Below, piece after piece: positions 58,998-60,643 of a stretch of 64,000 nt of DNA. The translations under genes and the position numbers were made by a program. The notes under the pieces were generated by a model. It had not been told where the DNA came from. It was given only the letters and a program-made list of their open reading frames with translations, and made no database searches. The stretch is taken from NCBI RefSeq assembly GCF_001975725.1, contig NZ_CP019434.1, forward strand, positions 2,430,606-2,494,605, given 5' to 3'. The stretch comes from Acidihalobacter ferrooxydans (GTDB lineage Bacteria; Pseudomonadota; Gammaproteobacteria; DSM-5130; Acidihalobacteraceae). Numbering within the stretch: position 1 is the stretch's first letter; every line of letters begins with the position of its first letter.

Positions 58998-59048
58998 CGT
59001 GTTGAAAAAGCTGACCGCTATCACGCTGGCGTGAGTAAATAAAAAGGA

Positions 59049-59132
59049 GTCTTGCAATCAGGCACGTGGATTGTCAGCGTCGCGTAATGGCCAGACCAGC
59101 CAGAATCGTGCTGGATTGCAAGACCCGACCCC
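59049..59132. repeat. Family C short repeat, copy 1
   Basis: About 84 bp, GTCTTGCAATCAGGCACGTG to ATTGCAAGACCCGACCCC, with inverted ends (GTCTTGCAATC / GATTGCAAGAC, one mismatch). It lies between ppsA and the Sel1 gene. Confidence 0.8.
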
Positions 59133-59169: not shown

Positions 59170-60240
59170 ATGGCCTCATTGAACTCTCGGCTTTGTCGAT
59201 CTCATTGGCTCGCCACGGTCATTATTCTGTCGCTCGCTACCGTTCCGCTATCTGCTGCAGCGTCCTGGTACCGAAAGGCAGCCGAGCAAGGATACGCACC
59301 AGCCGAATACGAGCTAGGTTCCCTCTATGAAAAGGGCCTAGGTGTCCCACAGAACTACATGACTGCGGCATCCTGGTACCGAAAGGCAGCCAATCAGAGG
59401 TATGCACCGGCCGAAAACAACCTGGGGTCTCTTTATGAAAAGGGTTTAGGTGTCCCACAGAGCTACACAAAGGCCATCTACTGGTATCGAAAAGCGGCTG
59501 AACAGAGCAATGCCCCGGCCGAGAATAACCTTGGCATTCTCTACGCCTCAGGGCATGGCGTCCCGCAAGATTTCGTGACAGCAGCAAAGTGGCTCATTCT
59601 TGCCAAGGCGTCAATGTCATCCACTGATCCAAGTAGGCTTCCTGCCATTGAAAATGCGCTTTCTACCGTCGAGGAGGAAATGACTCCCGCACAAATCGCC
59701 AAGGCCCAACGGCAGGCCAGCGCCTGGTGGTCCGCACATCACCATAGCGCCACACCGCAGCCCACTCATAGCACCACGCCGCAGCCCACTCATAGCACCA
59801 CACCGCAGCCCAGCCATAGCACCACACCACAGCCCACTCATAGCGCCACGCCGCAGCCCACTCATAGCGCCACGCCGCAGCCCACTCATAGCACCACGCC
59901 GCAGCCCACTCATAGCACCACACCGCAGCCCACTCATAGCACCACACCGCAATCCCGGCGTGACGCTGCACTGCAAGCGCGGTGGGCCGCGCAGATAAAA
60001 AATAAGATACAAAGCCACTGGTCTATCCCCCCGGGCTATCAGCCAGGGGAAAGTTGTCAGGTGACCGTGACTCAGGACCGTTCCGGGTATATTCTCAGCG
60101 TCCGCATCGGCCATTGCTCAGGCGGTGAATTGTTCCGTCGCTCGTTGGAGATGGCCACCTCGGAGTCGTCGCCGCTGCCCCCGGCACCGAGTCCGCAGGT
60201 GTTTCAGTCCAAACTCATTTTGGAATTCAATCCAGGTTAA
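59170..60240 (+). CDS. Secreted Sel1-repeat protein with TolA/TonB-like C-terminal domain
   Basis: A 356-residue envelope protein with an unusual build. Residues 1-31 form a signal peptide ending LSAAASW. Three full Sel1 repeats (ASWYRKAAEQGYAPAEYELG type) and a fourth partial one fill about 31-145. A linker of nine 8-residue units, HS(T/A)TPQPT, covers 192-263 and is coded by a 24-bp tandem repeat. The end (about 265-356) looks like a TolA/TonB C-terminal domain: ALQARWAAQIKNKIQSHWSI, CQVTVTQDRSGYILSVRI and a Cys pair. It may span the periplasm. The substrate or partner is unknown. Family C repeats flank the gene on both sides. Confidence 0.82.
   Translation: MASLNSRLCRSHWLATVIILSLATVPLSAAASWYRKAAEQGYAPAEYELGSLYEKGLGVPQNYMTAASWYRKAANQRYAPAENNLGSLYEKGLGVPQSYTKAIYWYRKAAEQSNAPAENNLGILYASGHGVPQDFVTAAKWLILAKASMSSTDPSRLPAIENALSTVEEEMTPAQIAKAQRQASAWWSAHHHSATPQPTHSTTPQPTHSTTPQPSHSTTPQPTHSATPQPTHSATPQPTHSTTPQPTHSTTPQPTHSTTPQSRRDAALQARWAAQIKNKIQSHWSIPPGYQPGESCQVTVTQDRSGYILSVRIGHCSGGELFRRSLEMATSESSPLPPAPSPQVFQSKLILEFNPG
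59743..59958 (+). repeat. 24-bp tandem repeat (nine units) inside the Sel1/TolA-like gene
   Basis: Nine in-frame 24-bp units of the type CATAGCACCACGCCGCAGCC plus CACT follow each other without gaps, differing at a few positions. They encode HS(T/A)TPQPT. Such a minisatellite is prone to change in copy number. Confidence 0.95.
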
Positions 60241-60283: not shown

Positions 60284-60370
60284 GGGGGTCAGGTCTTGCA
60301 ATCAAGCACGTGGATTATTAGCAACGCGAAATGGCTAGACCACTCAGAATCGTGCGTGATTGCAAGACCC
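60284..60370. repeat. Family C short repeat, copy 2
   Basis: About 87 bp, GGGGTCAGGTCTTGCAATCA to GTGATTGCAAGACCC, in the same orientation as copy 1 and about 85% alike by eye (AGCACGTGGATT, AACGCGAAATGGCTAGACCA, CAGAATCGTGC). Confidence 0.8.
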
Positions 60371-60446
60371 GAATATCCCTCTCGGATTTTCAAGAACTAT
60401 TCGCCTCTCAGCTCATTGTCCTGGTCGTCATGAAGCAAAAAAATAT

Positions 60447-60643
60447 GGGGCCGGGTCTTGCAAGTAATCAAGTGGGTCATTAGCTCAGGACCACTCAGCG
60501 CAAAATGGAGCCTGGTCTTAACAACCTGGCCCCTCTCCACCAAGCGGCGGGAAAAAATGAGGTCTCCCAATCACGCACGATTCAGAGTCGTCTGGCCATT
60601 TCGTTACGCCAACGCGATCCACTTGTTGATTGCAAGACCCCGT
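60447..60643. repeat. Family C short repeat, copy 3 (compound, with inverted right part)
   Basis: It begins GGGGCCGGGTCTTGCAAG and ends TTGATTGCAAGACCCCG. The right part (60570-60643) is an inverted copy (CACGCACGATTCAGAGTCGT, CTGGCCATTTCGTTACGCCA); the left part is a broken direct copy. Together with copy 2 it fills the gene-free stretch 60241-60659. Confidence 0.7.

Follow-up and report, generated by a model that had tools for sequence, protein, structure and literature searches.

Our analysis of a 64,000-nucleotide window of the Acidihalobacter ferrooxydans genome identified a gene whose product joins, in this order, a signal sequence, Sel1 repeats, a linker encoded by 24-bp repeats, and TolA domain III (TolAIII). 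This chimeric arrangement is confirmed, and it lies far above the level expected by chance. We tentatively favor, with a probability of roughly 45%, the view that the protein is a periplasmic Sel1 scaffold that would dock passively on TolB, and not a motor-driven rod spanning the periplasm; its export, its binding to TolB, and the consequence of that binding are what we infer.

The chimeric gene and its surroundings

The gene is an intact 356-codon open reading frame on the forward strand (Table 1). The earlier note had described its product as a chimera of Sel1 repeats, an HSTTPQPT linker, and a C-terminus of the TolA/TonB type, and the Pfam matches to Sel1 and TonB_2 together with the repeat array detected by TRF bear out this description. 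The Sel1 match covered four stretches (PF08238; E 3.4e-31, 107 bits against a cut-off of 30.7), and these tandem motifs of ~36 aa above the Pfam cut-off place the chimera in the Sel1-repeat family. Secreted Sel1-repeat proteins likewise have a signal sequence, repeats of 36 aa, and the customary cap at the C-terminus; they normally end there, whereas the chimera continues with the linker and TolAIII. The 24-bp array comprises about nine repeats (TRF: 59743-59951, 8.7 copies, 92% match), with one histidine per 8-residue repeat and one HHH at the start of the linker. A Pfam “Cornifin” match on the linker was rejected as compositional. Neither Rfam nor the scans for promoters and terminators gave a match at this locus, and a simple scan revealed no sigma-70-like promoter.

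Table 1. Features of the chimeric gene and its flanks (window positions)
Feature	Position	Strand	Evidence
Chimeric gene, 356 aa (P0001)	59170 (ATG)..60240 (end of stop)	+	open frame, no internal stop
Predicted Sec signal peptide, residues 1-31, site AAA|S	59170..59262	+	direct reading; KD19 maximum 1.91
Sel1 repeats (three 36-aa units and a partial one) and C-terminal cap, residues 32-186	59263..59727	+	Pfam PF08238; 108-bp tandem repeat
Linker, HS(T/A)TPQP(T/S)-coding 24-bp repeats, residues ~187-262	59743..59955	+	TRF; repeat search
TolA domain III, residues 263-356	59956..60240	+	PF13103; TolA identity; pLDDT; Foldseek
REP-like palindromic element, upstream	59049..59128	+	repeat search, genome copies
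REP-like palindromic element, downstream	60285..60372	+	repeat search, genome copies
Partial REP-like element	60447-60484		
REP-like palindromic element, inverted, downstream	60561..60639	-	repeat search, genome copies

The chimeric gene lies beside ppsA and outside the tol-pal operon, and the real TolA is found at L002 and L109. REP-like palindromes of ~80 bp are located on both sides of it. In total, 26 copies, full or partial, were counted in the genome, many of them in clusters with a spacing of about 1 kb; four family relatives had no full copy. None of these four relatives showed synteny downstream of ppsA. A short frame, VLKKLTAITLA-stop (58999-59034), follows ppsA directly and resembles the truncated start of a gene for an exported protein. 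The REP-like elements and this frame are consistent with a local rearrangement, and are no proof of the route of fusion. Elsewhere in the genome, a frame for a Y1-transposase of the RAYT-like type (G000:C1:887790-888113) abuts two REP-like copies.

The same genome encodes a complete tol-pal operon, YbgC-TolQ-TolR-TolA-TolB-Pal-CpoB (named by sequence reading and gene order), including TolB with its own N-terminus. A role of the chimera as a stand-in for a missing Tol component was therefore ruled out. The CpoB-like gene of this operon, recognized by sequence reading, belongs to the CpoB/YbgF type, which resembles the chimera as a periplasmic helical-repeat protein connected with TolA. However, CpoB/YbgF carries TPR and not Sel1 repeats, and binds TolA domain II rather than carrying domain III; no Pfam match to its coiled coil and TPR was present in the chimera.

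Identity and origin of the tail

Sequence and predicted fold both assign the tail to TolAIII rather than to TonB. Its Pfam match spans residues 270-353 (44 bits, cut-off 22; E 2e-11) and is to TonB_2 (PF13103), a model that covers the related C-terminal folds of both TolA and TonB, and the TolA Pfam model matches weakly. A proline-rich linker ahead of the fold is a further likeness to TonB, the energy transducer. When 39 TolAIII domains were placed in a tree, however, the tail grouped within the clade formed by the TolA proteins of its bacterial family (support 91/91), and its fold matches also favor TolAIII over TonB; no membrane anchor is apparent. Within its own genome, the best other match of the tail is TolA, encoded between TolR and TolB (54-55% identical), and in the sister species it is again TolA (64-66%). 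The tail keeps 21 of 24 columns conserved in TolA, where true TolAs score 18-23 of at most 23 in the same test, and the two conserved TolA cysteines are present. Structure prediction of the C-terminal part, a check named in the earlier note, gave a TolAIII fold: the AlphaFold2 model, built with TolAIII rows only and of low confidence in the Sel1 half, reached a pLDDT of ~91-98 (about 97) in the tail. The first seven Foldseek matches of this model in the PDB are all TolAIII, and TolA also ranked first in a profile search of PDB sequences. The “TolA/TonB-like” end of the earlier note can be narrowed to TolAIII.

The chimera as a whole is not a TolA. Its tail is homologous to the C-terminal domain of TolA (PF06519 / PF13103; PDB 1LR0, 6S3W, 3QDR, 2X9A, 4G7X), being 55-65% identical within the genus, and shares its predicted fold. 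In contrast, membrane domain I is not apparent and the Ala/Lys-rich helical domain II is absent, with the Sel1 repeats and the Pro/Thr/His linker in their place. The gene lies outside the tol-pal operon, and the protein scores 41.2 bits against the TolA equivalog TIGR02794, below the cut-off of 59.45.

The tail appears to be a captured 3′ end of tolA, since it is closer to the TolA of the sister species than to that of its own genome. DNA homology to the sister tolA (72% over 273 bp) begins at window position ~59956, the end of the repeat array, and homology to the genome's own tolA reaches only 66% over 153 bp. Comparison with the TolA of the sister species gave a dN/dS of about 0.15-0.19 (dS 1.2-1.5), a pairwise value that partly reflects the time spent as TolA and, without an ortholog, is no measure of selection on the whole gene. 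In the tree, the tail pairs with the sister TolA with weak support (87/56), on a faster branch (0.46 compared with 0.18-0.19 in true TolAs). We consider capture from a relative, or descent from an old paralogue, more likely than recent copying of the resident gene. Recent duplication of the resident tolA is less likely because its product is 55% identical and dS is saturated, as against 65% and a dS of about 1.2 for the sister TolA, a pairing that is itself weakly supported. Origin from a phage or plasmid was also rejected, since the tail had no match among phages or plasmids. The tail can be traced to tolA, and the gene is in this respect a traceable case of domain capture.

TolAIII domains outside TolA

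The chimera is a singleton: it is absent from four family relatives, and searches of genomes, phages, and plasmids turned up no ortholog. A pattern scan, which detects close relatives only, covered 84,980 species genomes and gave two matches, both in Nitrospira and both to the Sel1 cap. Approximately 750 genomes were sampled in the class and phylum; where a match was present it was mostly the only one in its genome, and a minority of genomes have a second. We read about 35 of these second matches, and some of the sampled genomes are drafts, so the count of TolAIII fusions is a lower bound. Some of the second matches are TonB. Others are anchorless TolAIII proteins, exported or of the lipoprotein type (G005, G272, G162, G161, G364, G217, G113, and G368), or exported proteins with two TolAIII domains (G374 and G380; L162 and L163). 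Lipoprotein-like starts were noted at L054, L057, L122, L126, and L176, and signal-peptide-like starts at L055, L056, L117, L121, and L124. All of these anchorless proteins, those with two domains included, are additional to the canonical TolA and come from several bacterial families.

One further Sel1 fusion was found in a distant bacterium (G446, L158:376-2490), in the order signal peptide-Peptidase_C14-SH3_3-Sel1-Pro/Ala linker-TolAIII. Like the chimera, this protein is exported and combines Sel1, a Pro-rich linker, and a TolAIII related to the resident tolA: its tail shares 66-71% aa identity with the TolA encoded in the tolQRA of that genome, with a dN/dS of about 0.2. It differs in carrying a caspase-like Peptidase_C14 and SH3_3 domain as well, and seems to have arisen separately; no ortholog was present among the matches listed for 17 family relatives. 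In another genome (G222, L156:4851-6905 (-)), an exported protein of 684 aa, which has a CSQCH motif and begins with a SHOCT-like stretch, terminates in a copy of the 3′ end of that genome's own tolA (94.7% over 398 bp; the last 89 aa 100% identical). Its Sel1-like stretch, recognized by eye, is not called by Pfam, and we count it only as capture of a tolA tail and not as a second Sel1 case. Repeats of 690 bp lie near this gene. No description of a Sel1-linker-TolAIII architecture was found in the literature searched. The earlier note had called the architecture unrecognized, which holds insofar as it is rare and was not found described; it is not unique, given the independent case in G446. 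The architecture is apparently rare, sporadic, and of repeated origin.

Possible roles of the chimera

In the reading that we favor, a secreted Sel1-repeat protein would have captured the 3′ end of tolA by gene fusion, and the product would be exported to the periplasm. The Sel1 solenoid would bind a putative partner, while the TolAIII tail may dock on the N-terminus of TolB via the β-augmentation known for this domain. Docking would bring the partner of the Sel1 part to Tol-Pal and tether or localize it there, or else act as passive competition with TolA; in neither case would the TolQR motor be coupled to the protein. Passive docking is favored because an exported, unanchored TolAIII keeps its binding surfaces but loses the TolQR drive. 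For the same reason, the periplasm-spanning scaffold suggested by the earlier note is unlikely if it is meant to be energized, as no TolQR coupling is expected without an anchor. In other species, TolAIII binds the TolB N-terminus by β-augmentation with a weak Kd of 40-200 uM (PMC7391070); passive competition would therefore need much protein. Points in favor of this reading are the TolAIII identity of the tail with its retained columns and cysteines, the low pairwise dN/dS, the intact frame, the complete tol-pal operon with its TolB, and the independent fusion in G446. The faster branch of the tail, the lack of an ortholog, the negative result of the simple promoter scan, and the chance of an uncleaved signal anchor weigh against it. 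If this reading is true, Tol-Pal would have natural passive adaptors or competitors built from its own force-transducing domain, which would tie Sel1 scaffolds (and, in a different lineage, a protein of the caspase-like type) to outer-membrane constriction and to the entry of phages or bacteriocins.

The main rival, which we consider possible but rather unlikely, is that the gene is a young and marginal chimera: recombination driven by REP-like or other repeats would have fused a Sel1 gene with a tolA 3′ end, and selection would not yet, or would no longer, act on a function of the product. Its singleton status, the REP-like elements on both flanks, the fast branch of the tail, and a GC3 of 60.5% compared with 67-85% in the neighbors all fit this explanation. 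However, the 356-codon frame is intact with its repeats in frame, dN is well under dS and the conserved TolA columns are kept, and a separate lineage (G446) made a similar fusion.

A broader proposal goes beyond passive docking on TolB and is, in our estimation, unlikely as it stands: exported proteins may have captured tolA 3′ ends repeatedly, and TolAIII modules that are soluble or lipoproteins may arise in this way. These would form a so far unrecognized class of Tol-Pal accessory proteins, which either dock cargo, such as Sel1 scaffolds and a caspase-like protease, on Tol-Pal or intercept TolA-dependent phages and bacteriocins.

It is quite unlikely that the chimera is a decoy, that is, a soluble periplasmic TolAIII that intercepts proteins of filamentous phages or bacteriocins using this domain as a receptor and thereby shields the cell. 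Both phage g3p and colicin A use TolAIII as a binding target (PMC7391070), and 2x9a, 3qdr, and 4g7x stand among the top fold matches. The sporadic distribution and the anchorless TolAIII proteins in other genomes would also fit an arms race. Against this, no phage, bacteriocin, or defense gene was shown adjoining the chimera, no phage record encodes the tail, and the Sel1 part is left unexplained.

Still less probable is an uncleaved N-terminus acting as a membrane anchor, which would make the protein a second, short TolA-like protein with Sel1 repeats and a Pro/Thr stalk. The KD19 maximum exceeds the usual threshold of 1.6 and compares with 2.56 in the genome's own TolA, and hydropathy alone does not separate a cleaved signal peptide from an uncleaved anchor in this protein. 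On direct reading, however, a hydrophobic core of only ~12 residues is followed by PLSAAA|S, the Sel1 repeats start directly after this site, and no SxxxH-type motif is present. The claim of the earlier note that the usual TolA anchor is missing agrees with this direct reading. Least probable of all is a periplasmic protein that binds metals through its His-containing linker. Eleven histidines in 77 linker residues would fit such a role, as would the best NCBIfam match, which is to the mercury-resistance protein MerG via the Sel1 part. However, the spacing of the histidines is 8 residues, the Pro/Thr array that holds them is flexible and shows neither HxH nor CxxC, and the MerG score is far under its cut-off (68 bits against 350).

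A minor observation concerns the TolA of this bacterial family (L002:1492-2658 (-), L011, and L016), whose membrane segment apparently has no SxxxH motif, with Asn at the position expected for the His; several other TolAs read here differ in this respect.
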